Source: Candidatus Saccharimonadota bacterium
GTDB lineage: Bacteria; Patescibacteriota; Saccharimonadia; Saccharimonadales; Saccharimonadaceae
Assembly: GCA_017437945.1 (NCBI GenBank)
Contig: JAFRWP010000014.1
Location: forward strand, 62,001-126,000
Direction: 5' to 3'
Length of the DNA stretch: 64,000 nucleotides
How positions within the stretch are numbered: position 1 is the first letter of the stretch; each line of letters begins with the position of its first letter. The translations under genes were made by a program, and so were the position numbers. The notes below the pieces were generated by a model. It made no database searches, was not told where the DNA came from, and was given only the letters and a program-made list of their open reading frames with translations. Of the stretch, positions 1 through 47,223 are shown piece after piece.

Positions 1-189
1 CGGAACTGCACCCTGAACTGGCACATTCGGAATAATCGGGGCTGCTCCGCCCTCTGGCATTTGCGGCATAGCAACCTCTGGCAAATCGCCATTACCTTTC
101 ACCGGACTTGCCGATGGAATTGCTTGTACTGCTGGTGGTAAATTGTCGCCACCCTGATCTGAAGTATTCACCTGCCCACTTTCATCCAT
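1..189 (-). CDS. N-terminal part of a Pro/Ala-rich protein (runs off the window)
   Basis: The reverse strand is open from an ATG at 189 to the window edge, giving 63 residues beginning MDESGQVNTSDQGGDNL and continuing in Pro-, Ala- and Gly-rich sequence (for example PQMPEGGAAPIIPNVP). No fold or family can be recognised from this low-complexity start; it may be a disordered N-terminus before a membrane or DNA-binding domain outside the window. A -10-like TACAAT lies 7 bases before the ATG and there is no Shine-Dalgarno site, so the mRNA is probably leaderless, as for many genes here. The gene lies downstream of rpoD on the same strand, separated by the long inverted repeat at 263-402. Confidence 0.6.
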   Translation of the reverse strand, partial: MDESGQVNTSDQGGDNLPPAVQAIPSASPVKGNGDLPEVAMPQMPEGGAAPIIPNVPVQGAVP

Positions 190-262
190 ATATCTTATTG
201 TACTTATGTTTATCAAAAATTGCAAACAATTTACGAAAAAATAAATCCACGAAATGACTATG

Positions 263-402
263 CGAATATCTAAATAAGTACGTGCATGCTTTTCATGGCT
301 CTACGGAGGTTGCTACCGAGTACAAGACACAAAACAGCCCGTAAAGACGGGTTGTTTTGATGTCGTGCCATGAAAACATGCACTACTTATTTTAGATATT
401 CG
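263..402. repeat. Long inverted-repeat element E1, overlapping the 3' end of rpoD
   Basis: The arms 263-299 and 367-402 are complementary over about 36 bases with two or three single-base differences, so a transcript would form a very long hairpin. The right arm contains the last codons and stop of rpoD, so the left arm is an inverted copy of the rpoD 3' end. Inside the arms are a GGT-TGCTA-CCGAG segment (308-320) and an inner GC-capped hairpin (331-358). The same internal motif with unrelated arms recurs at 3243-3370. Read from rpoD, the stop codon would sit inside the helix. It could act as a 3' stabiliser or terminator, or be a structured RNA; the function is unknown. Confidence 0.8.
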
Positions 403-1361
403 TGCAGTTTCTTAGTGTCTTTATTTTTACGTAATTTTGCAAGCGCCTTAGCTTCAATCTGGCGAATACGCTCACGGGTAACGGAAAACTCCGCACCAAC
501 TTCCTCAAGCGTGTGGCTCTTGCCGCCACCAATACCAAAACGCATCTTAATAATCTTTTGTTCACGATCAGTCAAAGTTGAAAGAATCGCCGCAATTTGC
601 TCTTTCAAAAGCTGTGTAGCAGCTGAATCTTCTGGCGAAACACGGTCTTCATCCTCAATAAAATCACCAAGCGAAGAATCATCGTCATCACCATCACGAC
701 CGACAGACGCATCGAGCGAAGCGATATCCTGCTTAATCTTCATTACATATTCAATCTTCTCAGTCTCAACGCCCATCGCTTCGGCAATTTCCTCTGTCGA
801 TGGTTCACGATTAAGGTCCTGCGTCAAGCGGCGCTGCGTGCGCAAAACTTTATTAATTGTTTCAACCATGTGTACTGGAATACGAATCGTACGCGCCTGA
901 TCTGCAATTGCACGTGTAATCGCCTGGCGAATCCACCACGTTGCATAAGTCGAAAATTTAAAGCCCTTGTCTGGGTCGAACTTCTCTACTGCGCGTAGTA
1001 AGCCTGTGTTGCCTTCCTGAATCAAATCCAAGAAATCCAAACCACGGCCCGAGTAACGCTTTGCAATCGAAACCACGAGACGCATATTCGATTCCGCCAT
1101 TTTATCCTTGGCTTTTTTCTGCTCTTTTGGTGTACCGTGAATAATCTTTTGTGCTAATTCATATTCCTCTTCAGTTGATAGAAGTGGAATTTTACCAATT
1201 TCACGAAGATATAGCTTAACGGAGTCATCTGAAACCTCATCATAGGTCACTGACTCTAAATCAACATTGAAGTCCTCATCGCCTTCATCACCCATATCGT
1301 CAAGTGAAGGCTCATCCATCAAGTCGTCGTCTAAGCGTAAATCTCTTTCTTCGTCGTCCAT
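387..1361 (-). CDS. rpoD: Primary RNA polymerase sigma factor (sigma-70)
   Basis: The 324-residue product directs RNA polymerase to -35/-10 promoters. Region 1.2 is visible at about residues 45-75 ([14 protein letters not shown]), followed by the group-1 sigma region 2 ([18 protein letters not shown], then [18 protein letters not shown]), region 3 and region 4.2 ([19 protein letters not shown]). Region 1.1 is reduced to an acidic tail of about 45 residues, so the protein is shorter than typical housekeeping sigmas, as expected in small genomes. An upstream hairpin (about 1460-1500) and a weak SD (AGGAA) precede the ATG. It lies directly downstream of dnaG on the same strand, as in many bacteria. 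Its last codons form one arm of inverted repeat E1. Confidence 0.97.
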
Positions 1362-1531
1362 TCTTTATTCCTATTAATTTTTACAAACAAAACCCCCGCC
1401 CATTCGCAAATTTTTGTTTTGAGATTTTCTGTATGCTTTCAACTTATCTTATTTCCGCTGGATGAACTACCAAAATAAAGTTCTTTTGTCCAGCATTTTA
1501 GCTGAATATTAGCATAATTTTTACAACATGT

Positions 1532-3154
1532 CTATTTTTTACGCAATAATTCGCTTAATTTCTTCATCAATTCTTCAATTTGCGCCTCGTCGCCCTTCTC
1601 TTCGGCAACGCGAATCTGTTCTTCAAGCTCTTTTCGTTCTGTCGCCAACCGTTCTTCAGACGCTTTCGCAATCAGACTATTAGCCTCTTTTTGCAAATCC
1701 AAAATCGAAAACTTCCCGTACTGCTCTTCAAAAATCAAACTCAGCTCGTCTTTGTTGAATTTCATCACCTCAAAATTACCGAGATCAACCTTACTACACT
1801 GCGCAATCGCTGCCAAATTCTTTTCTGCTCGACTTACAACTGTTGTACTTTTTACAACATTAGTCTTCTTCAGCTTCTTCTCTTCTTTAGCGACCTTTTT
1901 CGCTCGGAATGCATCTAATGAAATCCCCAGTCTTGCCGCTACTTGTCGCTCATATTTCTCTCGCAAAACCGTATCCGCCGGATCAATCTGCTCAATCAAA
2001 CGTTTTGCTTCCGTCGCATATTCCTGAAAACCTTTTTCAGTCTTCAAATCATACTTCGTCTCGTATTTTTCCAGTAGCCATTCCAGCGCCGGTCGGTAAC
2101 TATTAACCGCATCTTGCCACAACTTTGGATCCTTCTGAATCAACTCGTCCGCATCTTTACAGCCGTGATAATCATCGATTACTGATAAATAAATTCCAAA
2201 TTTTGACGCCATAGAAATTGCCCGCTCGGCCGCTCGAATACCCGCCTCGTCGCCATCGTATGCCAACCGAATATCATTCGTCATCCGCGAAAAACTCTTC
2301 AAATGCATTTCTGTCATCGCCGTCCCAGCTGTTGCTACCGCCTGGCAAACGCCCGCCTGATGCGACGAAATCACGTCCATGTTCCCCTCAACCACCACCA
2401 CAAATTCCGAGCGTCGAATCGTGTCCTTTGCCTGACTCAACCCAAAAATATGCCGCCCTTTGTTATACAGCAACGTTTCTGGCGTATTCAGATACTTCGG
2501 CGAATTTTTATCCTTATCATTCAGAATTCTTGCCGTAAAACCTATCACACGTCCACCTACGTCCATCAATGGGATCGTCATCCGGCCCTTAAATAAATCC
2601 CCGCCAAAACGATTCAATAGGCCAGCATCTTCCATCTCTTTCTTCGTAAAACCACGCTTCGTTAAAAAGTTCACCAAAGCATTGCCCGATTGCGGCGCAT
2701 AACCAATCCGGAAATTCTCTACCGTCTTTTTGTTCATGTTCCGTTTGTAGAACACGTACTGCATCACGCCCTTATTTTTTGTTAAGCAATACTGAAAATA
2801 CTTAGTCGCGAGCTCCAGCGCTTCATATAATCGCGCTTTGTGCTCGGCTTGTTTTTTGTCATCGCCAGAATAACGTCTTAGCTCCACCCCCGCCTGCTGC
2901 GCCAGCTTTTCTAGTGCTTCGCGGAAAGTACAGCCTTCCATCTCCATCACGAACGTAAAAATATCACCGCCTTTATTGCTCGAAAAATCATGCCAAATCC
3001 CCTTCTCTGGCGAAACCATAAAACTCGGTGTCTTGTCTGTCCCCCAAGGTGAATGCCCTTTGAAATTCCTACCCGCGCGCTTCAGCTCAATGTATTGGCC
3101 AATTACGTCCTCTACCGCTAACCTCGCTCGAATTTCTTCTTTGGCATCCTCCAT
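1532..3154 (-). CDS. dnaG: DNA primase DnaG with a degenerate zinc-binding domain
   Basis: The 540-residue protein makes RNA primers for replication. The N-terminal domain is clearly the DnaG CHC2 fold (KTPSFMVSPEKGIWHDF), but the four zinc ligands are replaced: the usual CPFH-EKTPSF reads SPWG-DKTPSF and the usual HCFGC reads HDFSS. The Toprim core is intact, with VVVEGNMDV at about residue 255 and AYDGDEAG at about residue 300. The C-terminal region beyond the helical subdomain is short and ends in a Lys/Glu-rich helix, so the helicase-binding domain is reduced or divergent. A TATACT box lies 6 bases before the ATG, with no SD, so the mRNA is probably leaderless. The family call is secure; loss of metal binding is inferred from the residues. 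Confidence 0.95.
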   Translation of the reverse strand: MEDAKEEIRARLAVEDVIGQYIELKRAGRNFKGHSPWGTDKTPSFMVSPEKGIWHDFSSNKGGDIFTFVMEMEGCTFREALEKLAQQAGVELRRYSGDDKKQAEHKARLYEALELATKYFQYCLTKNKGVMQYVFYKRNMNKKTVENFRIGYAPQSGNALVNFLTKRGFTKKEMEDAGLLNRFGGDLFKGRMTIPLMDVGGRVIGFTARILNDKDKNSPKYLNTPETLLYNKGRHIFGLSQAKDTIRRSEFVVVVEGNMDVISSHQAGVCQAVATAGTAMTEMHLKSFSRMTNDIRLAYDGDEAGIRAAERAISMASKFGIYLSVIDDYHGCKDADELIQKDPKLWQDAVNSYRPALEWLLEKYETKYDLKTEKGFQEYATEAKRLIEQIDPADTVLREKYERQVAARLGISLDAFRAKKVAKEEKKLKKTNVVKSTTVVSRAEKNLAAIAQCSKVDLGNFEVMKFNKDELSLIFEEQYGKFSILDLQKEANSLIAKASEERLATERKELEEQIRVAEEKGDEAQIEELMKKLSELLRKK

Positions 3155-3242
3155 ACTTCTAGTATATCATCTGTCTAACAGATTAAAAACATAGCCATAA
3201 CGTTTCATTCAAAATATGTCTCTTGAGGAACATGCGCAACAC

Positions 3243-3370
3243 AAACGTTTTGTGGAAATACATCACTTTTAGAACGTGCGCAGGTCACGACCGAGTCTGA
3301 GCGAAGAAGTACCCGCAACGGCGGGCTACTTCGAGCGCTTCTAAAAGTGATGTATTCCAATAAAGCGTTT
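3243..3370. repeat. Long inverted-repeat element E2, between divergent genes
   Basis: Arms of about 38 bases (from 3243 and up to 3370) are complementary with only a few mismatches. The core carries GGT-CACGA-CCGAG (3283-3295) followed by GAGT-type sequence and an inner hairpin with a GCGGG/CCCGC stem around 3310-3332. This matches the layout of E1 at 263-402, although the outer arms are unrelated in sequence. It lies between the starts of dnaG (reverse) and the membrane gene at 3387 (forward), and its right arm ends only 4 bases before the TATAAT box of the latter. The preserved pairing with different arm sequence suggests an RNA structure rather than a conserved transposon end. Confidence 0.8.
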
Positions 3371-3386
3371 ATGTTATAATTAACTC

Positions 3387-4004
3387 ATGGACAATAAAGC
3401 TTATCTTGACGAAATTGCCGTCAAAGGCAAAAAGAAATTTTCAGCAGGGCCAATCTTGACTCCAGTCATGATTAAGCTCATCATTGTCGGCGTCGCCGCG
3501 GTCATCGCTATGATCGTCGTAGCAACAATGCTTAATTCCAGAAAAGATGATTCCAGCGCAATTCACGAGACTATTTACTTCCGCATGACTGGCCTTATCG
3601 ACAAGCACAGTCCAATCAGAACCTACATCAAAAAAGTAAAATCATCAGACTTACGCGCCTACACTTCGACTCTTATTTCCGCCCTCACAACCACGAGCGA
3701 CTCGATCAAAGCTGTTTCTGGCAAAATCGGTCTCAAAACCAGTAGCCCGAGCAGCGAGGTCTCACAGCTTAACAGCAAAAACATCAGCACTCTCGAAGAT
3801 GACCTCGAGCGCGCCTATCTCAACGGCAACCTCGACGTTACTTACGCATCCAACATGTCTTATCAACTATCATTGCTAATTAGCCTCGAAAATCAGGCTC
3901 GTTCCAAGACTAGCGACGCCACGTATGCTCAGGCCCTCGATGAATCGAAAGCCGGTCTCGAAGCGCTCGAGGAAAACTTCCGCAACTACGCCGACACGCA
4001 TTAA
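3387..4004 (+). CDS. Single-pass membrane protein of unknown function
   Basis: The 205-residue protein has a charged cytoplasmic start, one strong membrane segment at about residues 30-50 (MIKLIIVGVAAVIAMIVVA) and an outside domain that is mostly helical, rich in Ser/Thr and Leu (repeated S-TLISALTTTSDSI-like stretches). This could be a helical bundle or pseudo-coiled coil. I do not recognise the family. TATAAT at 3374-3379 ends 7 bases before the ATG, which predicts a leaderless mRNA. A strong terminator follows the stop, so this is a single-gene unit. It may belong to the lineage-specific envelope proteins of this group, but that is a guess. Confidence 0.8.
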   Translation: MDNKAYLDEIAVKGKKKFSAGPILTPVMIKLIIVGVAAVIAMIVVATMLNSRKDDSSAIHETIYFRMTGLIDKHSPIRTYIKKVKSSDLRAYTSTLISALTTTSDSIKAVSGKIGLKTSSPSSEVSQLNSKNISTLEDDLERAYLNGNLDVTYASNMSYQLSLLISLENQARSKTSDATYAQALDESKAGLEALEENFRNYADTH

Positions 4005-4010
4005 GCCATC

Positions 4011-4038
4011 AAAAATCCCCCTCGCGGGGGATTTTTTT
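4011..4038 (+). terminator. Intrinsic terminator after the 3387 membrane gene
   Basis: AAATCCCCC and GGGGGATTT pair around a short loop and are followed by a run of seven T. The A-rich left flank means it could also stop reverse-strand transcription coming from the mscL-orn operon. Confidence 0.9.
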
Positions 4039-4043
4039 ATACT

Positions 4044-4361
4044 TTATTCTTCCGGAGCGGACATTTCGTATCCATGTCGCACTAAATCGATAATCTCATC
4101 GTGTTCTAGTTGACCGGAGCAAATCACTTCAATGCCGTTTCGCCCTAAAGCTCGACTTTCCATCACACTCTCATAGCGCCCCTGCAAAGTCTTGCTCAAG
4201 TTTCGCTCACAACGTAGCTGAATGCGTAGAGGATCCGTTCCTGGTTCCATCACGAGGAAAATCCTCTCCCCGCGCGAGAAAATCTTCATTCCCTGCTCCT
4301 CGCGCACCGAAGTATTATCTAGCGCCAAGGCGTACTTTACGATATCTTCCTCAAGTACCAT
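4044..4361 (-). CDS. YjbR/MmcQ-family small protein
   Basis: The 105-residue protein fits the YjbR (CyaY-like fold) family: the strands FLVMEPGTDPLRIQLRCE, a middle region ending in a Gly-rich turn, and the C-terminal ELDHDEIIDLVRHGYEM-type helix (here LEHDEIIDLVRHGYEM) match the usual ending in which a helix leads to an SY[ED] motif. The family is described as DNA-binding, but its biochemical role is not established. The start overlaps the orn gene by 25 bases and has an SD (GGAGGAA) inside orn, so the two are translated from one mRNA with mscL. Some residues usual near the N-terminus are missing, so the call is moderately sure. Confidence 0.65.
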   Translation of the reverse strand: MVLEEDIVKYALALDNTSVREEQGMKIFSRGERIFLVMEPGTDPLRIQLRCERNLSKTLQGRYESVMESRALGRNGIEVICSGQLEHDEIIDLVRHGYEMSAPEE

Positions 4362-4864
4362 TTCAATTCCTCCATGCTACCGCGAATATCATCGAGTGCT
4401 CGATGATTATCCGGCTTAATAAACCTATCGCCAAGTGCATTTTCGAAATACAATTTCCACGCACTTACGTCGAGCATGCGATAATGCAGCTTTGCATTCA
4501 ATTCCGGCCATTCATTTTCAATGAATCGCCTGTCCTGATGAATCGAATTACCAGCCAAATATACCGTATCGCCAAAATTCTTTTCAACAAACTGCAGTAA
4601 TTCTTTTTCGACTTCCGCCGAAGGCCGACCACTGCCATTTTGAGCTACCAAAGCATCATACGAGGCCTTATTTTTTTCCCAAAACTCTCCCACCATCCGC
4701 TCACGGATCAATGCGTCGTCGACTTTCACTACCGCCGTATAGGTAGCAATTTCGTTCATTTCCCAGTCAGTCGCAATCGCCGCTACTTCTAGAATTCTAT
4801 CCTCAACTGGCGACAATCCCGTCATCTCCAGGTCTACCCAGAGCAAACTCGCTTTTTTCGACAT
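4337..4864 (-). CDS. orn: Oligoribonuclease (DEDDh 3'-5' exoribonuclease)
   Basis: The 175-residue enzyme degrades 2- to 5-mer RNAs left by other nucleases. The DEDDh motifs are all visible: DLEMTGL (Exo I) near residue 11, HQDRRFIE (Exo II region) in the middle, and HRALDDI (Exo III, with the catalytic His and Asp) near residue 153. The length equals that of typical Orn. It starts 1 base after the mscL stop and is overlapped by the yjbR-like gene, so it is the middle gene of a three-gene operon. Orn is common in Proteobacteria and Actinobacteria; its presence here is consistent with a CPR genome that lacks several other nanoRNases, but that is not tested by this window. Confidence 0.95.
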   Translation of the reverse strand: MSKKASLLWVDLEMTGLSPVEDRILEVAAIATDWEMNEIATYTAVVKVDDALIRERMVGEFWEKNKASYDALVAQNGSGRPSAEVEKELLQFVEKNFGDTVYLAGNSIHQDRRFIENEWPELNAKLHYRMLDVSAWKLYFENALGDRFIKPDNHRALDDIRGSMEELKWYLRKIS

Positions 4865-4865
4865 A

Positions 4866-5213
4866 TTATTTATCTTTTTTGTCGAGCTTCAAGCACTTAA
4901 TGACGATGTAAATTACAAGCGCCAAGATTAAGAAGTTAATAAGGTCGTTCAGGAATGCACCGAGACCAATTGCCGCACCGCTATTACCGAGCGGAATTGA
5001 CCAACCTCTAAGACCATCAGTTGAACCAAGCAAAAGACCGATTGGTGGCATAAAGACATTATTTACAAGCGAATTCACTACTACACCAGCGGCCGAACCA
5101 AGCACTAAGCCGATCGCCAAACCAATAATATTTTGCTCCTTAATAAAGTCCATAAAACCGTTGGCTCCGCCCTTGACTTTGCTAGCTACACCTTTGATTT
5201 TTTCTACTGCCAT
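4866..5213 (-). CDS. mscL: Large-conductance mechanosensitive channel MscL
   Basis: The 115-residue protein releases solutes during hypo-osmotic shock. It has the amphipathic N-terminal helix (GFMDFIKEQNIIGLAIGLVLG), the Gly/Ala-rich pore-lining TM1 with GSAAGVVVNSLVNNVFMPPIG, and the second TM (FLNDLINFLILALVIYIVIK) ending in a Lys-rich cytoplasmic tail. The periplasmic loop is short. An SD (AGAGGATG) lies before the ATG. It is the promoter-proximal gene of the mscL-orn-yjbR operon. Confidence 0.95.
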   Translation of the reverse strand: MAVEKIKGVASKVKGGANGFMDFIKEQNIIGLAIGLVLGSAAGVVVNSLVNNVFMPPIGLLLGSTDGLRGWSIPLGNSGAAIGLGAFLNDLINFLILALVIYIVIKCLKLDKKDK

Positions 5214-5264
5214 AATGACATCCTCTTTAATTACTTATCTTAAATATACCACGTCCATAATTTC

Positions 5265-5293
5265 TTGACAAATATACATATCTGTGCTAAAAT
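5265..5293 (+). promoter_or_regulatory. Consensus sigma-70 promoter of the 5376 cassette
   Basis: TTGACA at 5265-5270 and TAAAAT at 5288-5293 are separated by 17 bases, with TGTGC just before the -10. The same architecture recurs in front of seven or more solitary orphan genes in this window. Confidence 0.85.
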
Positions 5294-5297
5294 ATCA

Positions 5298-5346
5298 GAG
5301 ATTCACTGGGGGTTATTCCAAAAACCAAGTGAAAAGCTCTTTTTTT
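5298..5346 (+). promoter_or_regulatory. Leader hairpin followed by a T tract, attenuator-like
   Basis: Starting within a few bases of the predicted transcription start, TTCACT (5302-5307) pairs with AGTGAA (5328-5333), reinforced by GGTT/AACC inside and GAG/CTC outside, and is followed at once by eight T (5339-5346). This has the form of an intrinsic terminator placed before the gene, so it could act as an attenuator or simply as a 5' stabilising hairpin. Confidence 0.55.
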
Positions 5347-5375
5347 CTTTAGTTTACATATAGGAGGTGTGCGAC

Positions 5376-6008
5376 ATGGGTCAAATCTACCATCTACCCA
5401 CCACCAATCACATCTCTGCGGAGAAATGTGGTGGGTTTGAACAGTCACTCGGTTTTAACAAGGTCCCTCTGACGGTAATCAACGCTATCTTCAATTTCCT
5501 TCGCGGCGGAGACGGACCGGACGTATACGCCATCAAGCTATACAGAAACGGCAAGAACAAACCCAGCGAAGAAATCGTTCGAGGCGTCATGCCGAGCAGA
5601 TACAAGACCAACTTCAAGCTCGTGCTTGAATTCCAAGAAGCGTTAAATTCATTCCTCGATTCGGAAGCTCCCAAAGCTTTCGAGACCATCAAAGGAATGG
5701 TGTCTCGTATCTATCACAACCGACACCACAACTGCAATGTAGTTTTCGTCAAATGCACCAACGGCATCATTGGTTGCGGCTGGTACGACCGGGCGAACTC
5801 CACCCAGAAAGGTACCCTTACGGCTTGTTATCTGCTCTATACATTTGGCAGCATCAACGAAAGTCATGACCGCATCCTCTATCTTGCAACCCAAAACTAC
5901 CTCCCATTTGAGAGTAACTTCACTCTTGACCAAGCAAAAATGGCCGAGCAGATTCTCCTCAAATATTCAGTAGAGGAAGCCCTTAATCGGGTAGGTGGAG
6001 AAGACTAG
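5376..6008 (+). CDS. Orphan cassette protein, unknown function
   Basis: The 210-residue soluble protein has no signal peptide or membrane segment and no family I recognise. It is of mixed composition with several Cys and His residues (YHNRHHNCNVVFVKC and GIIGCGWYDR), which might form a metal site or a fold core. The start is the ATG at 5376 because AGGAGG at 5362-5367 stands 8 bases upstream; the GTG at 5367 overlaps the SD and is rejected. It is a stand-alone unit: consensus promoter, folded leader, strong SD and its own terminator. Its organisation differs sharply from the leaderless neighbours and matches the other accessory cassettes. Function cannot be inferred. Confidence 0.8.
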   Translation: MGQIYHLPTTNHISAEKCGGFEQSLGFNKVPLTVINAIFNFLRGGDGPDVYAIKLYRNGKNKPSEEIVRGVMPSRYKTNFKLVLEFQEALNSFLDSEAPKAFETIKGMVSRIYHNRHHNCNVVFVKCTNGIIGCGWYDRANSTQKGTLTACYLLYTFGSINESHDRILYLATQNYLPFESNFTLDQAKMAEQILLKYSVEEALNRVGGED

Positions 6009-8619: not shown

Positions 8620-11600
8620 GTGTCAATTTTTGGTATTTTCCGCAAAAACCTAAGACAATCCGGTTTTCGTTCATATCGCAGACTTTTTGTCGCGATCATT
8701 TTGTTTACTATTTCTGTCGCAACTGGCATTTCTCTCCTCCTGGGCGCCGACGCCGCCGAAGTGCCCCTCCGATCGGTCGAAATCACGTCCGAACATAGCA
8801 ACTTCGCCAATAACGAACCTGGTTCATGGAAAATCATCAAATCCGCCGAATGGACCGCAGTCGATAAAGCTAGAATCACTTTCGAAGTCGAATCGGTTGC
8901 CAAATATGACAATAAAAATGTCGATATTTTGATGGTAATAGATAATTCCGGCTCAATGGTGGGCCAAAAACTTAACCAAGTTAAAACCGACACTAAGGGG
9001 CTGATCAATGCAACTTTATCTAATGCCAACAACCGGATGGCGCTAGTCACTTTTAATAATACTGCGGGAATAATATCTGGCTTCACGAGCGACAAACAGC
9101 AAATGCTCACCTATATTGACAACATCTCCGCCGGCGGTTCCACCAACTATAATCAAGCTCTCATTAAAGCGCTCGAAGTATTAGACGGCTATGAAAAGCA
9201 ACCAAATCGCGAACTAATCATATTATTCCTCACAGACGGCTTCCCTAATGTTGAAACCCTCAATGAAGTTGCACAGTATCAAATTATCAAAACCGTATAT
9301 CCATACGCAGTAGTCAATGGCATTCAGTACGAAATGGGCGAAACAATCCTTGATCCAATTATTCGTGTTTCCGACAATCAATTTATCGCAAATATGTACT
9401 CACTAAATAACGTTCTCATTGATGCCTCAATTGTAGCTCATAACTACGACAACTTTACTATTACCGACTATATTGACTCCGATTATTGGAATATGAATGG
9501 AAATCCTACTATTACCGCATCAATCGGTGAAGCCACATTGTCATTCGATGAATTACATCACCCAATCGTCAATTGGAATTTAGGCGACAAATATCACTCT
9601 GGTCAAACCGCCACACTCACGATTGATATTAATCTCGAAAACCAATACATTAATAGCCCGGACGATGACCTACTTCTGCCAACCAACACACACGAAACCA
9701 TCCAGACAAGCATAGAAGATATCCCATCCGAAAACCTCACTAGTGACAAAACTCCAATCTTAAAAAACAATTATGCCGTAATTTACGACGCCAACGCGCC
9801 TACAGGATGTGACGTACAAGGCGTAGTTCCAGCCACTACCAACCACACCATCTTTACGGTAGTCGAAATACAAGACAACGAGCTATCCTGCTCTGGATAT
9901 ACCTTTAAGGGCTGGAGTGTTTCGAATCGTAAAATCGGTTATATCAACAACCAATATTTCCGCATGCCAGGAGAAGATGTTTATATATATGCTATTTGGG
10001 CTAAACCAGACATCGCCAAATCTATGGATGGTACGATCCATGAGAGGCCAAATGCGACTCTTAATACTGGCAGCCAAGTAAATAGCGCCATGAAAAAACT
10101 TTCTGGGCAAAGCGGTCCCTCATATAGCGCCGTAAACACCAACATAACCTCCATTCAGCGTTCCGATACGCTACCACCAGCCGCAAATACCGAAATAATA
10201 TCTCACAGCCAATCAATGATGCCAATTTATGCCTGGTTCGAAGAAGGTGTCATCTATTACTACACAGAAGCCGAGATGATCTACATGAATCAAGATTCGA
10301 GTTATCTATTCTATAACTTTCAGGCATTAGCAGATATCGATGGAATCGGTACTTGGAATACTAAAAATGTCACGAGTACTTATAGAATGTTCTATCAAGC
10401 AAAAGCAATCACGAACATCGATGCGCTGTCCAATTGGAATACTAAAAACGTCACCGTCATGTCATATATGTTCTTTAGGGCATCCAATCTCACAAACATC
10501 GACGGCGCCCTTAATTGGAATACTGGAAAAGTCACAAATATGACGTATATGTTCTATGGGGCATCCAATCTCACGAATGTTGATGGAGCCCGTAATTGGG
10601 ATACTGGAAAAGTTAAAAACATGTCGTACATGTTCTATCTAACATCAAACCTTACAAATATTGACGGGGTTAGCAATTGGAATACCAGCAATGTTCAAGA
10701 TATGTCAAATATGTTCTCCTCGGCATCAAAGCTTACAAATATTGACGCACTATCTAATTGGGATACTCGTAGTGTCACGAATATGGAATACTTGTTTTAT
10801 TACGCCAGAAGTCTCACAAATGTTGACGGAGTTAGTAATTGGAATACTGGAAATGTTACGAATATGAAAGACATGTTTTTAAACGCCACTAGTCTTGTCA
10901 ACATCGACGGACTTTCAGAATGGGACACAGGAAACGTAACGAATATGTCGGGCATGTTTAATAGTACAGCCCAGCTCACAAATATTAATGCTCTCTCAAA
11001 ATGGAATACCGGGAACGTTACGGATATGTCAAACATGTTCAATAATACAAGCCAGCTCGCAGATATTAGCGGAGCCAGTAGCTGGAACACTGGCAATGTC
11101 ACTACTATGCAAAGCATGTTCAGCAGGACTCCTAGTCTCACAAATATTAACGATATAAATAATTGGGACACTAGTAATGTCCAAAATATGTCATCCATGT
11201 TCTCTAATGCATCCAGCCTCACGAACATCGACGGCGCCCTTAATTGGGATACGGGAAATGTTACTACCATGGAGAGCATGTTTGCTTACACCAATAGCCT
11301 CACAAACATCGACGGCGCCCTTAATTGGGATACGGGTAATGTTACTACTATGGAGCACATGTTTGCTTACGCCAAAAGTCTCACGAACATCGACGGCGCC
11401 CTTAATTGGGATACGGGTAATGTTACTACTATGAAGAGCATGTTTGATTCCGCGACTAATCTTGCAAACATCAACGGCGCCCTTAATTGGGATACGGGAA
11501 ATGTTACTACCATGGAGTATATGTTTGATTCCACGACTAATCTTGCAAACATCGACGGTGCCATTAATTGGGATACGGGAAATGTTATCAATATGAATTA

Positions 11601-12549
11601 TATGTTCCAAGGAGCAAGAAGTCTCACGAACATAAATGGTGTCACCAATTGGGATACTGGAAATGTGTTATATATGTTGGCCATGTTCCGATACACTACA
11701 AACCTCGCGGATATCAGCGGCCTCAGCAATTGGAACACCGAAAATCTCATAGCTTTTAACTACGTATTCTATCAATCAAAAAGCATTACGAATCTCGATG
11801 CGCTCTCTAGATGGAATACCGGAAACGTACAATACCTAAATTACACATTCTTCGACACTGATAGTCTCGCCGATATCAGCGGCCTCAGCAATTGGAACAC
11901 CGAAAACGTCATTGATATGGCATACATGTTCCACCAGGCAGGAGATGAAGTTAAAACTATTGCAAATCTAGATGCTCTCTCTGGTTGGGACACTGGAAAG
12001 GTTACAAATATGGCAAATATGTTTGAAGACATGAAATCTCTCACGGATATCAGCGGCCTCAGCAATTGGAATACCGAAAACGTCACCAATATGTCACATA
12101 TGTTCGATGACGCAGGAAATATCACAAATCTAAACGCACTCTCCGGTTGGGATACCGGAAAGGTTACAGATATGTCATATTTGTTCAGAGATTTGAGATC
12201 TCTTACAGACATTAGTGGTATTAGTAATTGGAATACTGAAAACGTCACCAATATGTCAAATATATTCTTTAGAGTAGGAGTTACAAATCTAGATGCCCTC
12301 TCCGGTTGGGATACCGGAAAGGTTACAAATATGTCAGAAGCATTCGCTCATTCGAACAATCTTGCGAATATTGAAGGCATCGGTAATTGGAATACTGCAA
12401 GCCTGACCGATATATCATCTATATTCTATCAATGCTCCAGCATCACTGATCTATCTCCTCTCAATAACTGGAACTCGACAAATATCACAAATAAAACAGA
12501 TGCCTTTTACAGTATTCCAACCTCGGTCACTCGTCCGACTTGGTATTAA
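8620..12549 (+). CDS. Giant surface protein: VWA domain plus 27 BspA-type repeats
   Basis: The 1309-residue protein starts at GTG 8620 with a signal anchor at about residues 22-42. A von Willebrand A domain follows (about 95-200; VIDNSGSM is the metal-binding DxSGS), then a beta-rich adhesin region, and around residues 385-465 an InlB/Listeria-Bacteroides-type module (YTFKGWSV). From about residue 560 there are 27 copies of a 27-residue DUF285/BspA-type repeat (consensus NWDTGNVTNMSYMF..ASNLTNIDGL). No LPXTG, C-terminal membrane helix or cell-wall module is visible, so it is probably anchored by its N-terminal helix or released. The expected role is binding to a host or neighbouring cell. Repeats 12-15 are nearly identical in DNA, suggesting recent expansion. 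A weak -10-like TAAAAC lies about 16 bases before the start. Confidence 0.9.
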   Translation: MSIFGIFRKNLRQSGFRSYRRLFVAIILFTISVATGISLLLGADAAEVPLRSVEITSEHSNFANNEPGSWKIIKSAEWTAVDKARITFEVESVAKYDNKNVDILMVIDNSGSMVGQKLNQVKTDTKGLINATLSNANNRMALVTFNNTAGIISGFTSDKQQMLTYIDNISAGGSTNYNQALIKALEVLDGYEKQPNRELIILFLTDGFPNVETLNEVAQYQIIKTVYPYAVVNGIQYEMGETILDPIIRVSDNQFIANMYSLNNVLIDASIVAHNYDNFTITDYIDSDYWNMNGNPTITASIGEATLSFDELHHPIVNWNLGDKYHSGQTATLTIDINLENQYINSPDDDLLLPTNTHETIQTSIEDIPSENLTSDKTPILKNNYAVIYDANAPTGCDVQGVVPATTNHTIFTVVEIQDNELSCSGYTFKGWSVSNRKIGYINNQYFRMPGEDVYIYAIWAKPDIAKSMDGTIHERPNATLNTGSQVNSAMKKLSGQSGPSYSAVNTNITSIQRSDTLPPAANTEIISHSQSMMPIYAWFEEGVIYYYTEAEMIYMNQDSSYLFYNFQALADIDGIGTWNTKNVTSTYRMFYQAKAITNIDALSNWNTKNVTVMSYMFFRASNLTNIDGALNWNTGKVTNMTYMFYGASNLTNVDGARNWDTGKVKNMSYMFYLTSNLTNIDGVSNWNTSNVQDMSNMFSSASKLTNIDALSNWDTRSVTNMEYLFYYARSLTNVDGVSNWNTGNVTNMKDMFLNATSLVNIDGLSEWDTGNVTNMSGMFNSTAQLTNINALSKWNTGNVTDMSNMFNNTSQLADISGASSWNTGNVTTMQSMFSRTPSLTNINDINNWDTSNVQNMSSMFSNASSLTNIDGALNWDTGNVTTMESMFAYTNSLTNIDGALNWDTGNVTTMEHMFAYAKSLTNIDGALNWDTGNVTTMKSMFDSATNLANINGALNWDTGNVTTMEYMFDSTTNLANIDGAINWDTGNVINMNYMFQGARSLTNINGVTNWDTGNVLYMLAMFRYTTNLADISGLSNWNTENLIAFNYVFYQSKSITNLDALSRWNTGNVQYLNYTFFDTDSLADISGLSNWNTENVIDMAYMFHQAGDEVKTIANLDALSGWDTGKVTNMANMFEDMKSLTDISGLSNWNTENVTNMSHMFDDAGNITNLNALSGWDTGKVTDMSYLFRDLRSLTDISGISNWNTENVTNMSNIFFRVGVTNLDALSGWDTGKVTNMSEAFAHSNNLANIEGIGNWNTASLTDISSIFYQCSSITDLSPLNNWNSTNITNKTDAFYSIPTSVTRPTWY
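11220..11600 (+). repeat. Nearly identical 81-base tandem repeats inside the surface gene
   Basis: Four to five consecutive units share long identical stretches encoding DGALNWDTGNVTTM followed by a variable 13-residue segment. The high DNA identity compared with the rest of the array suggests recent duplication or gene conversion and a potential for length variation. Confidence 0.85.
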
Positions 12550-23697: not shown

Positions 23698-23890
23698 TAT
23701 TCGAATGATTTCGGATACAGCACATTTTCAGACATTATTCACAATTAAATAACTCTATCAATCGATATCTTCTTATCGAGCGTCAAGCGCATTCCTCGAG
23801 TGCGTTTAGCGCTCGATAAGAGGGCCTCTGACATGCAATTATGCTTGCAGAGAAATCGACGAGCCCTCTTGAGTGAGGGTAGAGGAGGTA
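23698..23890 (+). promoter_or_regulatory. Long structured 5' leader of the 23896 cassette
   Basis: The leader of about 190 bases contains two strong consecutive hairpins. One is at about 23771-23820 (CTTATCGAGCG pairs with CGCTCGATAAG, with further inner pairing). The other is at about 23820-23868, where GAGGGC pairs with GCCCTC and CTCTG with CAGAG. The SD AGAGGAGG follows directly. No known riboswitch core was recognised; it could be a regulatory RNA. Confidence 0.6.
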
Positions 23891-42549: not shown

Positions 42550-44130
42550 TTAACGCAACCTGATGCTTCGATTGCCCTTCATGCCCTCAATAAATTCTTC
42601 AAACAATGTATCGCCTTTTTTGTCACTGTATGAGGCGGCATTATAGGACATAGCACAGGCTAGCGCAAACATCCCAAATATAGCCAACATTATAAGTGTC
42701 ATCGTCTTTGCTAATTGCTTCGGGAATTTGTCTTCCATCTGTAACACGCCTTTTATCGTGTTGTCGTTTCTGCCAATCATAACGTTAAATTCCAATTCTC
42801 TTAGCTCCGTGAAGATAACGTCTTCACATTTCACGTTCTTGATAACTGCTCGCGTGTCTTTTTCATGGACATGCCGCGCAATCTTATTTCTCGCTCCCCT
42901 TGTTGAAAATACATAATTGAATATGGATATAGGTAACCAAAATAGGCCTATTAAGCTTAGTATAACCACTATTTCTGTCAGAATTTTATTGCCAACGCCA
43001 TTCCTCGCTAGCGTCCCCATAGCCATATTAATAATAAACATCACCAATGGAACCGATATAGCCCTAAAAATAACCCTACTCCATTCAATTGGCGTACTTC
43101 CAACTGTTTCTCTCGTCCGACCATTTACTGCTACGTAATGTAAAGTTGATTTTCCGTTTGGTTTTTCATCTAAATAGCTGTACAGCCATACCGGCAAGTA
43201 TGCGGTCTTCCACTTTGCGCCATTTCGATCAAGACTCATCTTATCCCATCGCACGCCACGATTATACTGATCGATCACATTTCGCATTCGATACTTCATA
43301 ATATCTTCAACTTGTAATCTCACACGCTTATCTACGTCTTCTATATCAACATCGCGACGTTCGCAAGAATATCCACGCACATACCTCGGATCCCACTCTA
43401 CGGCATTTTCAGTATCAAATGGCATGATTGCATTAACGACATTATTGGTATTTGTCAGCACATTCTGGTTTAAGCGGTCCGAAGAAGCTTCGACCGTTAG
43501 ATCATCAATCTCTAAATCAAACTCACGAGAGACGTGATATAAATTCGCATCATATCTAGTGTATTCGCTCCGACCATGGCGGACCACATAATGTCGAGTT
43601 TCAATTTCACCGTCGCCAGACATTTTTGCATGCACATTCATATCTACGACCATATACGGCAAATAAATGCCCACAACGGCATCGTCATTAAAATCTTCAA
43701 CGAATTTTCGCTTAGCTAGCGAGCGATTCCTGCGAATATATGCTTTAACTTCTTCAACGGCCGCTTCATGCGTAACTTTAAATGGCAAAATCAAATCCGG
43801 AATTGCACCATTCGGCAATTTATCCGAAATTGACAGAACATGTCGACACCAAGGGCAACGCGCACTTGTTGCTTCATCCGTATTCACAGTTACTTCGGCA
43901 CCACAAGCCGAGCACTTCATCGTTATCATCGTCTTAGAATCGATGATTTTCTTTGCGCCACCGCTAATTATCTTGCCCTTCAACATACTGATGTCGTCGG
44001 CCCCATTCGCCATTACGCCATCAATTAAAGAACGACACTGTTCACATCTCAGCTTGCCGCTTTTTTCGTCAAATCTTATATCCGAACCGCCACAGTTCGA
44101 GCAGCGTAAAACACTACTTTTTCTCGCCAT
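42550..44130 (-). CDS. Zinc-ribbon membrane protein, YdjG-like paralogue 1
   Basis: The protein of about 526 residues starts with two zinc ribbons: RCSNCGGSDIRFDEKSGKL..CEQC at the N-terminus and KCSACGAEV..CPWCRHVL. A conserved middle domain of about 200 residues follows (ILPFKVTHEAAVEEV, MPFDTENAVEWDPRYVRGY, YLPVWLYSYLDEKPNGK), then two membrane helices (about 355-420), a cytoplasmic segment and a last helix near residue 495. An ATG at 44208 exists, but the start at 44130 (MARKSSVLRCSNCG) begins the conserved ribbon and overlaps the previous gene by 17 bases. It is the third and last of three tandem paralogues. Confidence 0.82.
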   Translation of the reverse strand: MARKSSVLRCSNCGGSDIRFDEKSGKLRCEQCRSLIDGVMANGADDISMLKGKIISGGAKKIIDSKTMITMKCSACGAEVTVNTDEATSARCPWCRHVLSISDKLPNGAIPDLILPFKVTHEAAVEEVKAYIRRNRSLAKRKFVEDFNDDAVVGIYLPYMVVDMNVHAKMSGDGEIETRHYVVRHGRSEYTRYDANLYHVSREFDLEIDDLTVEASSDRLNQNVLTNTNNVVNAIMPFDTENAVEWDPRYVRGYSCERRDVDIEDVDKRVRLQVEDIMKYRMRNVIDQYNRGVRWDKMSLDRNGAKWKTAYLPVWLYSYLDEKPNGKSTLHYVAVNGRTRETVGSTPIEWSRVIFRAISVPLVMFIINMAMGTLARNGVGNKILTEIVVILSLIGLFWLPISIFNYVFSTRGARNKIARHVHEKDTRAVIKNVKCEDVIFTELRELEFNVMIGRNDNTIKGVLQMEDKFPKQLAKTMTLIMLAIFGMFALACAMSYNAASYSDKKGDTLFEEFIEGMKGNRSIRLR

Positions 44131-45616
44131 TATCTTGTCCCACCGGCGTATCTTCTGGCTTCGAGCCAAACATCCTGTCGATGCCGAGATAATTGGCCAT
44201 CTTCTCACCCATCATCTCTTTACCATTTCTGGCAATCACACCTTTTATTACGCTGTCGTTCTGACCAACAATTCTAGATGATCTCAAACCTCTACGATGC
44301 TCATGCAGATTATCGGCCTTCTTCAAATTCTTCATCGTTGAAACAGTTTCCGCTTCATGGTGATGGAAAGCATTCATGTTGCGATATTTACTCAATTTTA
44401 CCCAGTAGAAGATGAATCCAGGCGTCAAACCAACCAAACCCAACAGTGCTGGATTGTCCTCAACGTCAGAATCGATACCTAACCAGAATTTCAACCACCA
44501 GAAGCCTAAGAATATACCAATAACCTCAATAATAGCCGAAACAATCCGGAGCTTTGTCTTATTAATCGGTACGCTCCCCATCGTTTCGCCCGTACGTGCG
44601 TTAACTGCTACATAATGCAGCATCTTACCCTTGTTGTCATCCTGCAAATAGCTATATAACCAAACCGGTAGATAGGCAGATTTCCACTTCGTGCCCTTAA
44701 TCGTGATGTCTTGCTGAGTCCATTTTGCACCACGATCATAAAAAGTCATTGTTTCCTTAACTTTAAAACGCGCTACGTCGCCGACCTGCGTTGCCATTAC
44801 TGGCCTTAGCGTATCTATATTCGTATCACGTTTTTCACTCGTAAATCCGCGCAAATATGATGGATTCCAATCCACACATTTATCTGTATCAAACGGCATA
44901 ATTGCGTTAATAACGTTGTTCGTATTCGCACGCAAATCTTGGTTCAACTTATCTTTCGAAGCTTCAACCGTCAAATCATCTACCAATAAATCAAATTCAC
45001 GCATCACGTCATATGCGTCCGCATCGTAACGCGTCTCGCGGCTCTTCCCTACGCTAACAGTATATCTGCGAGTTAAATGCTCCGCCTCACCGGACATTAC
45101 CGCGTGCGCATTTGCATCCACAATCATATATGGTAAATATACGCCCATAACGTTCTCAGTCGAGAATTCAGCCTTAAACTTTGGATGTGCAAAGAACTGT
45201 CTCTTTTCCACAAACGCACGAATATTCGCCTCTGCCTTACCCTTCTCGAGTTTGAACGGCAAAACCAAGTCCGGAACAGCACCATTTGGCAATTTTTCGT
45301 TAACCGACAAAATATGCCGACACCAGTGACAACGCGCACTCGTCACTTCGTTAGTATCAATCACGACCTCGGCACCACAAGCGGGACATTTTAGAGTTAA
45401 GATTATTTTCTCATCCGGAATAATATTATTAGCGCCTTCACCAACAATCTCACCTTTCAATTCTTCAACGCCGCCGTAATCATTTGCGCCATTATCACTA
45501 AATTCCGTACGGCAGAAATTACATTTTAATTTCCCCGTCTTCATATTTAGCGCAACGTCAGTTGCACCGCACTTAGGGCAACGATTTACACCATTCTTTT
45601 CTTTTTTAACTGCCAT
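44114..45616 (-). CDS. Zinc-ribbon membrane protein, YdjG-like paralogue 2
   Basis: The 500-residue protein has the same plan as its neighbours: ribbon 1 (RCPKCGATDVALNMKTGKL..CNFC), ribbon 2 (KCPACGAEVVID..CHWCRHIL), the shared middle domain (MPFDTDKCVDWNPSYLRGF, YLPVWLYSYLQDDNKGK) and two membrane helices around residues 340-395. The C-terminal part is cytoplasmic. It starts 23 bases after paralogue 3. In Bacillus subtilis the related YdjG is encoded with PspA and the SPFH protein YdjI and acts in membrane-stress organisation; that link is known for the family, not shown here. Confidence 0.82.
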   Translation of the reverse strand: MAVKKEKNGVNRCPKCGATDVALNMKTGKLKCNFCRTEFSDNGANDYGGVEELKGEIVGEGANNIIPDEKIILTLKCPACGAEVVIDTNEVTSARCHWCRHILSVNEKLPNGAVPDLVLPFKLEKGKAEANIRAFVEKRQFFAHPKFKAEFSTENVMGVYLPYMIVDANAHAVMSGEAEHLTRRYTVSVGKSRETRYDADAYDVMREFDLLVDDLTVEASKDKLNQDLRANTNNVINAIMPFDTDKCVDWNPSYLRGFTSEKRDTNIDTLRPVMATQVGDVARFKVKETMTFYDRGAKWTQQDITIKGTKWKSAYLPVWLYSYLQDDNKGKMLHYVAVNARTGETMGSVPINKTKLRIVSAIIEVIGIFLGFWWLKFWLGIDSDVEDNPALLGLVGLTPGFIFYWVKLSKYRNMNAFHHHEAETVSTMKNLKKADNLHEHRRGLRSSRIVGQNDSVIKGVIARNGKEMMGEKMANYLGIDRMFGSKPEDTPVGQDNGEKK

Positions 45617-45639
45617 TTTATTCCTCCGTTGCCTTACCT

Positions 45640-47223
45640 TTAATAATCATAACTATAATCAAATCCGCCGCCCGAGTCATAGCTTGAACCGCCAAAATCA
45701 TAGCTTGAGCCACCAGAATCCCAACTTGATCCCGAATCCCAGCTCGAGTCATAGTCATAGCTATAATCATAACTGGACGAACTCGACGAGCTTGAACTAC
45801 TAGAACCGCCGCCATCACTGGTCGAAAGAATCAGCACAAAAATCAAGATTATAATCAGCCAAATAAACAGTCCTTTGAAAAATTCAGCCGCCTTATGCAC
45901 GCTATATTGTGGCCGAGCCGACTCTCTATGCGCGTTCGTGTAATTGCTACCCATTGCAAAACGAGCCTTTTCGGCCGATGACATTGCATCACGTCCATTT
46001 GATAACGCACCAATCACGCGCGTATCATTTCGACCAGGAATCGAATCGCCGTGTGCCGGGAATGAATCGAATAGGCATTCGTCAACTTTAATCAGATTTT
46101 TGTCGCCAATCCTTGCCGACGTTTCCATTTCATGATGATGCCTATCTAACGCTATATCCGGATCCGAACCCCAACGCATTTCGCTTCGCTTGGTTCTGCC
46201 TGGCGCACAACCAACAGTCTCACCCGTACGAGCATTCACGGCTATGTAATAAATTCTGGCATCACTGCCACTCGGACGACGATAACTATACAGCCAAACC
46301 GGCAAATACGCCGTTTTCCAACGCGTCCCCTTAATGCCAAGATGTTCTCTTTCCCACCTTGCACCACGATCGTAATCGCCAATCAAAGATCTTGCGCGAA
46401 TACGAGCGATATCACCGCTCTGAAGCGCCACCACTTCCTTCAGGCTATTAACATCAACTGTTCTTCTCTCACTGGCAAAACCGCGCAAATAATTTGCATC
46501 CCATGCTACGGCATTCTCGGTGTCAAATGGCAAAATCGCATTAATTATATTATTCGAATTCACCATCGTATCTTGATTCAGACGAGCCGATGATGATTCT
46601 ACCGTCAAGTCATCAATGTAAATGCTAAACTCACGCGATACCTTATATAAACTCGCTTCCGGATAAGATCTACCTGGTAATGAAACTGTCTTCTCAGCTT
46701 TACCATTGAGCTCCATCCTTGCATTTACATCGACGATAAAATACGGGAAATAAACCCCTCGTACCCCCTCTTTCTTGAATGTGTCACGAAAATCGGCATC
46801 GACATAGCCTAAATTATCCATGCACTCTCGGACTTTTTCTTGCGCTTTAGCCTTTGTGATTTTAAAAGGCAAAACCAAATCCGGCACTGCACCGTTCTTT
46901 AATTTTTCGTTGACCGTAAAAATATGCTTGCACCAGTGACATGATGCATCTAAACTCTCTTCTGTATTAACTACTACCTCCGCGCCACAAGATGAGCACT
47001 TATATGTAATTACGATATCTTCACCAGGAATTATATCCCCGGCACCATCACCGCGTACTTCCCCCTTCAGGTCTTCTACGCCACCCGCCGGATTGGCCAA
47101 CTTTCCTTTGAACACAGTCCGGCAATAATTACACTTGAGTTCTCCATCTTTAGCACTTAGCGATACATCGCTTGACCCGCAATGCGGGCAGCGATGTACG
47201 CCATTTTTAAGTGCTTCACCCAT
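45640..47223 (-). CDS. Zinc-ribbon membrane protein, YdjG-like paralogue 3, with Ser/Tyr/Gly tail
   Basis: The 527-residue protein has ribbon 1 (RCPHCGSSDVSLSAKDGEL..CNYC), ribbon 2 (KCSSCGAEVVVN..CHWCKHIF) and the same middle domain as its two neighbours, but only one membrane helix near residue 440 (LFIWLIIILIFVLIL). A low-complexity tail of Ser, Tyr, Asp and Gly (SSSSSYDYSYDYDSSWDSGSS) follows, which would lie outside the membrane. Such a tail is unusual for the family and could be sticky or phase-separating. It lies 23 bases after the SPFH gene. Confidence 0.82.
   Translation of the reverse strand: MGEALKNGVHRCPHCGSSDVSLSAKDGELKCNYCRTVFKGKLANPAGGVEDLKGEVRGDGAGDIIPGEDIVITYKCSSCGAEVVVNTEESLDASCHWCKHIFTVNEKLKNGAVPDLVLPFKITKAKAQEKVRECMDNLGYVDADFRDTFKKEGVRGVYFPYFIVDVNARMELNGKAEKTVSLPGRSYPEASLYKVSREFSIYIDDLTVESSSARLNQDTMVNSNNIINAILPFDTENAVAWDANYLRGFASERRTVDVNSLKEVVALQSGDIARIRARSLIGDYDRGARWEREHLGIKGTRWKTAYLPVWLYSYRRPSGSDARIYYIAVNARTGETVGCAPGRTKRSEMRWGSDPDIALDRHHHEMETSARIGDKNLIKVDECLFDSFPAHGDSIPGRNDTRVIGALSNGRDAMSSAEKARFAMGSNYTNAHRESARPQYSVHKAAEFFKGLFIWLIIILIFVLILSTSDGGGSSSSSSSSSSSYDYSYDYDSSWDSGSSWDSGGSSYDFGGSSYDSGGGFDYSYDY

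Follow-up and report, generated by a model that had tools for sequence, protein, structure and literature searches.

A 64,000-nucleotide stretch of DNA from Candidatus Saccharimonadota bacterium, called the window throughout, carries two long hairpins (E1 and E2) that share a core while their arms differ, and the question raised by E2 is whether such a structure marks a family of regulatory RNAs or a mobile element. An earlier note on this DNA had taken the shared core and the complementary arms as the signature of a structured RNA family and not of a transposon. The observations behind that reading hold. The core AGGT-N2-C-N-ACCGAGT is common to E1 (307) and E2 (3282), which are its only two exact occurrences both in the window and in the 0.95-Mb genome as a whole, a CCCG-type inner hairpin is present in both elements, their arms are unrelated in sequence and each self-complementary (37 nt and 86% in E2), and the two elements bracket rpoD (387-1361, - strand) and dnaG (1532-3154, - strand). 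The reading itself survives in part: the core is structured as proposed, while the arms do not covary as an RNA helix and the core is mobile. E2 is probably a copy of a palindromic mobile element found in Saccharibacteria, in which the core moves and the arms are derived from the target.

The features of the two elements are collected in Table 1. For the whole E2 hairpin (3236-3377) the folding energy is -65.4 kcal/mol, while shuffled versions average -32.2 (z -9.5), and covariance model R2 matches the hairpin at 3264-3349 with an E-value of 2.8e-19, the covariance E-values here and in the table being rough. The basal pairs of P2 are weak in E2, and the conserved tip of P3, CCCGC-AACG-GCGGG, lies at 3312-3325 with its loop pairing with the loop of P2. 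E1 forms a hairpin at 262-405 (fold z -13.4) within a longer imperfect inverted repeat, I1 (228-292/373-437), and sits at the rpoD stop codon; both copies in the window are either intergenic or at a stop codon. Elsewhere in the window, an inverted repeat at 23771-23821 (24 nt, loop of 3 nt) gave no match to the element model. The window also encodes a probable surface protein of 1309 aa (8620-12549, +), which begins with a von Willebrand-like segment and contains numerous short NWNTGNVTNMxxMF repeats (BspA/DUF285-like), and it has three adjacent paralogous genes (42550-47223, -), each coding for a zinc-ribbon membrane protein of about 500 aa.

Table 1. Coordinates of the E1 and E2 features in the window
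Feature	Positions	Strand	Description	Evidence
E1 distal arm, outer part	220..277	+	rpoD 3' coding sequence (about 56 nt) in inverted copy	
E1 core with inner P1 (second copy)	289..377	+		model R2, E 2.5e-22
E1 proximal arm	373..443		native rpoD 3' end codons and 3' flank	
E2 5' (distal) arm	3238..3274	+	I2 repeat, 86% complementary to 3339-3375	
E2 P2 stem-loop	3277..3297	+	TGC-GCA-GGT-CACG-ACC-GA-GTC	R2 match, P2 covariation across 120 copies
E2 P3 stem-loop	3301..3338	+		fold and P3 covariation
E2 3' (proximal) arm	3339..3375	+	native flank of the 205-aa gene, up to its -10 box (3375-3380)	
205-aa membrane protein gene, downstream of E2	3387..4004	+		ORF, orthologues

The two elements are members of a large family of structured elements. 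The first covariance model, built from four copies, found about 133 copies in 30 of the 45 species of the genus, and the second, built from 120 copies, detected the element in 31 of those 45 species and, across the family, in 121 of 295 genomes. By covariance model the window's own genome has five copies, two of them (E1 and E2) in the window; six selected genomes of two other genera have 18-40 copies each under fuller scoring, and the range over genomes is 0 to 40. When matches to the motif with at most one mismatch were counted in the window, three were found against 0.14 expected. A near-match in the same genome (L004) and several matches in sister species are the same element; three further pattern matches were set aside, being attributed to chance or to coding sequence (L003, L007, and L006 at the pattern position). 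In a survey of one genome per species (84,980 species), 16 of the 17 exact matches were in Candidatus Saccharibacteria records, on which its assignment to Saccharibacteria is based; the remaining match (L159, labelled planctomycete) folds without a three-way junction and is probably due to chance. No viral contig matched the exact pattern. A phylum-wide sample gave weaker matches in three other families, and four loci (L298, L299, L301 and L302) have the same three-way junction fold with a different P3 loop, two of them located within recG and tsaD. Rfam returned only weak matches, far below gathering scores, for window positions 1-6000 at E-values up to 5, and no match on any element at the gathering score for 20 element loci. 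The element was likewise undescribed in the open-licence papers searched, which cover the literature in part. The genomes are metagenome assemblies, and strong hairpins often break short-read assembly; contigs at L091, L095, L099, L147 and L150 start or end inside or beside an element, which suggests that copy numbers from short reads are too low.

The conserved part of the element is a three-way junction of P1, P2 and P3 with a kissing pair between the P2 and P3 loops. On the + strand the order is 5' arm, 2-nt joint, P2, joint, P3, short joint and 3' arm. The consensus of P2 is UAC-GGA-GGC[UACG]GCC-GA-GUA, and P3 has a variable lower stem and the conserved tip CCCGU[AACG]ACGGG. In an alignment of 120 copies, which was fitted to the structure and so leans in its favour, 94.4% of the cells were paired compared with 65.8% in shuffles, two-sided change was seen in 29 of 31 pairs, and pairing fell to 34-41% when the pairs were slid by one column. 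The tertiary contact between the loops is absent from the covariance model and yet covaries (alignment A5, columns 36-72: G-C in 87 copies, U-A in 28, neither in 5). Covariation, which the earlier note had named as support for a new RNA family, is strong in the core. The mobile unit is this core of about 65-75 nt, consisting of a few base pairs of P1, P2, P3 and the loop contact; its boundary lies about 4-5 bp into P1 and its fold is under selection. The P3 loop (A5 columns 31-37 and 70-73) reads GTAACG in the window's genus and shifts to GTGACG or GTGGCG in the genera whose copies lie in ORFs. The shift removes a TAA codon and is possibly an adaptation to being translated.

The arms behave differently. 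The earlier note had named chance occurrence of the motif, without flanking arms elsewhere, as the result that would speak against it. The motif was found far above chance, and arms were nearly always present: in 121 of 126 copies the two arms paired to the cut-off, compared with 6 of 623 controls in which arms were swapped between copies. The arms therefore pair within a copy and not between copies, and they do not travel with the core, since near-identical cores at unrelated loci carry unrelated arms. Copies in G011 have 100% core identity and arm identities of 43% and 43%, those in G010 have 97% and 23%/26%, a comparison of G012 with G011 gives 99% and 23%/31%, and three loci in G270 share one core with three different arm sets. 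The claim that a mobile element was excluded is not upheld either: as these copies and the distal arm of E1, which consists of inverted rpoD codons, indicate, the complementarity of the arms arises with each insertion. In 12 pairs of orthologous copies, 70 arm differences were one-sided and 5 compensated, so that covariation of the arms as an RNA helix is not upheld. The one-sided changes were confined to the 5' arm in 54 cases and to the 3' arm in 16. Such 5'-biased decay without compensation is to be expected if one arm is a dispensable copy and the other a native flank under constraint; a selected RNA helix would not decay in this way. Mismatches between the two arms are present even in copies whose cores are identical, which counts against a copying origin, and among the mismatches G-T (284) exceeds A-C (182), hinting at some strand-specific selection on folding. 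Complementarity of the arms is no evidence for a regulatory RNA; the arms are probably a stretch of host DNA together with its inverted copy.

At the E2 site, the promoter block of the 205-aa gene, CGTTTATG-(C/T)-TATAAT, is kept in relatives with and without an element there, and the 3' arm is called native flank for that reason. The 5' arm, being the decaying one in the orthologous pairs, we infer to be an inverted copy of this gene-side flank. Several other species of the genus also have such elements upstream of the orthologue of the 205-aa gene. In G020, the proximal-arm sequence of its relative G004 is present at this site while the core and the distal arm are absent, which could reflect a deletion instead of an empty site. 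E2 may have a specific effect on the promoter next to it.

The origin of an arm can be traced at E1. Its segment 220-277 aligned to the rpoD sense strand with a score of 27, a value reached by none of 1000 shuffles, and the C-terminal protein sequence of rpoD is conserved whether or not a genome carries the element. By direct reading, the inverted copy terminates at TTGCAA, a hexamer found both in rpoD and in the promoter of the next gene (its -35 box), as is expected for a template switch at short homology. For the copies at the rpoD site in G042, G032 and G014 the overlap with the coding end is 8-9 nt, which is non-significant alone. In trmD, the linker measures 3-27 nt when uninterrupted; where it is interrupted, 75-186 nt are present, a length divisible by three in every case. 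At 7 of 24 loci the far end of the insert was complementary to the upstream native codons (shuffle p<=0.02), with 13 nt of exact complementarity at L319, and the near end was complementary to the downstream codons at 0 of 24. One arm is thus native and the other its inverted copy at E1 and at a subset of the trmD sites tested; the trmD inserts outside the significant 7 of 24 may be older or layered. An exact, fresh empty site was not found, and it is E1 that shows the inverted duplication.

A rule that the 3' arm is always native was considered and rejected: it is mostly true in the window's genus and fails at lepA and trmD, where both orientations of the core are seen and the upstream side is native either way. 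One site has the core in opposite orientations in different species (L121 compared with L133). Core orientation and copying are therefore not strictly coupled. Truncated older copies, consisting of a 5' arm and P2, lie outside newer ones in G004, G036, G040 and G042.

The genomic positions of the copies differ between groups. In the window's genus they are mostly intergenic, and the 3' side of the element is near a gene stop (median 22 nt) or a gene start (median 43 nt). With genes called by a simple longest-ORF rule, the 3' neighbour presented its start in 71 cases and its stop in 54, and the 5' neighbour its stop in 68 and its start in 57, with no fixed orientation. Adjacent pairs of elements pointed outward (- then +) in 16 of 17 cases, and several lay between convergent genes. 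In the high-copy relatives, most of the copies examined are within ORFs, on either strand and in frame. An ORF of at least 250 aa runs through the element (in one or two cases, beside it) at 20 of 29 loci, and all 10 proteins scanned matched NCBIfam models, including MnmA, PheT, LepA, Der, AlaS, TrmD, ValS and TruB, with the models of the host family matching on both sides of the element. Of these host genes, trmD, lepA, der, alaS and valS are essential. At L269, L271, L273, L279, L280 and L294, lepA is split into two ORFs at the linker where palindromic elements insert. A separate start seems to serve the second half, and the material between the halves contains intact-looking ORFs resembling an aquaporin (L269) and histidine phosphatases (L271, L294). 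Unrelated palindromic inserts with other cores were seen in the same protein loops of lepA (L283) and trmD (L316, L317, L334), from which more than one such family of elements appears to exist in these bacteria.

Taken as a mobile element, E2 and its relatives may have gained their arms through fold-back DNA synthesis, that is, template switching at the time of insertion. A strand copying the flank would acquire the core, snap back through the short core stem, copy the flank in reverse for about 25-70 nt and then switch back at a short homology, which at E1 would be TTGCAA. Decay of the arms without compensation after insertion is demonstrated by the comparisons described above. The element is probably selfish; hosts would tolerate it next to genes and, provided that the frame is preserved, within ORFs as well. 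Profile searches for Y1 transposases and reverse transcriptases in 45 genomes of the genus identified no mobilising protein. Y1 transposase (PF01797) was rejected for this role, as it occurs in 4 of the 45 genomes, all element-free; the IS200-type Y1 transposase is accordingly present in 4 of 14 element-free species and 0 of 31 carrier species. Reverse transcriptase (PF00078) was also rejected, as it occurs in 7 of the 45 genomes and is absent from the window's genome and from most carriers. A tentative reading, which we put forward with less than even confidence, is that the element lacks a transposase and spreads as a folded single strand of DNA or RNA, with the core as a snap-back adaptor and host replication or repair building the arms, and that essential proteins of Patescibacteria have repeatedly acquired in-frame peptides in this way.

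Other explanations account for parts of these data. It is unlikely that the element is a structured non-coding or cis-regulatory RNA whose arms form a long P1 helix kept by compensation and acting on rpoD-dnaG or other neighbours. Covariation of the core, its tertiary loop contact, the greater number of G-T than of A-C mismatches on the + strand and the recurrence of elements upstream of the same gene at the E2 site would all suit such an RNA, but identical cores carry unrelated arms, and for the arms the proposal is contradicted by the ratio of 70 uncompensated to 5 compensated changes. The inconsistent orientation to neighbouring genes, the copies within ORFs on either strand, the spread from no copies to 40 per genome and the lack of an Rfam match also argue against it, and the mixed gene orientation rules against leader-RNA and terminator readings. 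Bidirectional transcription terminators or insulators, which the outward pairs, the convergent neighbours and the position of E1 at the rpoD stop codon might suggest, are scarcely to be expected: a T-run is missing after both E1 and E2, gene starts make up half of the 3' neighbours, and copies lie within ORFs.

The other two alternatives concern how arms and core came together. That the core inserts into pre-existing long palindromes such as cruciforms or terminators, in the manner of insertion sequences that target hairpin loops, would explain why it always lies at the dyad centre of the arms. It is nonetheless very unlikely, as the element-free rpoD 3' ends have short terminators only, the element-free promoters of the 205-aa gene contain no evident long palindrome, the uninterrupted trmD linkers measure 3-27 nt, and half of the E1 palindrome is coding sequence. 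We also consider it improbable that the element is old and immobile, with its arms kept complementary by template-switch correction within the palindrome and not by copying at insertion. Orthologous sites whose arms differ in step across species (L077, L087, L148) fit this proposal, as do the core inversions, which suggest recombination or template switching in the arms, but it leaves unexplained both the identical cores at unrelated loci and the uncompensated decay between orthologues. Template-switch correction could act in addition to copying at insertion.

The best overall explanation, and in our judgment a likely one, is thus that E1 and E2 are copies of a mobile DNA element of Saccharibacteria that had not been catalogued before. 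Among known kinds, the Rickettsia palindromic element (RPE) comes closest; the Saccharibacteria element works in a similar way without being filed as one. RPEs are palindromic and insert in frame in many genes (reviewed in PMC10969869). The Saccharibacteria element resembles them in being small, multi-copy and palindromic, in having no protein of its own, and in lying in frame in unrelated genes where it would be translated as an extra peptide, the in-frame insertion into protein-coding genes being found in the high-copy relatives. An RPE family is defined by a consensus that spans the whole palindrome, arms included. By contrast, only about 70 nt of core are conserved in the Saccharibacteria element, and the arms are host-derived and unrelated between cores that are 97-100% identical. 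It differs further in its core, a three-way junction with a loop-loop contact, and in its host phylum.

The likeness to other repeats is more limited. REP and BIME sequences are also dispersed palindromes, often intergenic and in inverted pairs, but REPs have conserved arms and are mobilised by RAYT-type Y1 transposases, and here the arms are not conserved and Y1 genes occur only in element-free genomes. MITEs are short, non-autonomous, hairpin-forming repeats whose terminal inverted repeats are conserved and whose targets are usually duplicated in direct orientation, whereas the Saccharibacteria element is conserved at its centre, its termini are host-derived and specific to each copy, and its flank is duplicated in inverted form. 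Quasipalindrome or fold-back template-switch mutations would duplicate the flank in inverted form across a spacer, with a short homology where the strand switches; they are sporadic, whereas in this element the turn is always occupied by one specific structured core of about 70 nt. The covarying secondary structure of a structured RNA is seen in the core helices and the loop-loop pair and not in the outer arms, and the reverse transcriptase that marks group II introns and retroelements is absent from most carriers among the 45 genomes.

If this explanation is correct, copying the target in inverted form at insertion produces complementary arms that mimic the covariation of an RNA. An abundant mobile element is added to a group with tiny, reduced genomes, and its in-frame insertions reach tRNA-modification enzymes, translation factors and aminoacyl-tRNA synthetases. 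A core that builds its own arms from the target would, if true, represent an unusual mode of mobility.
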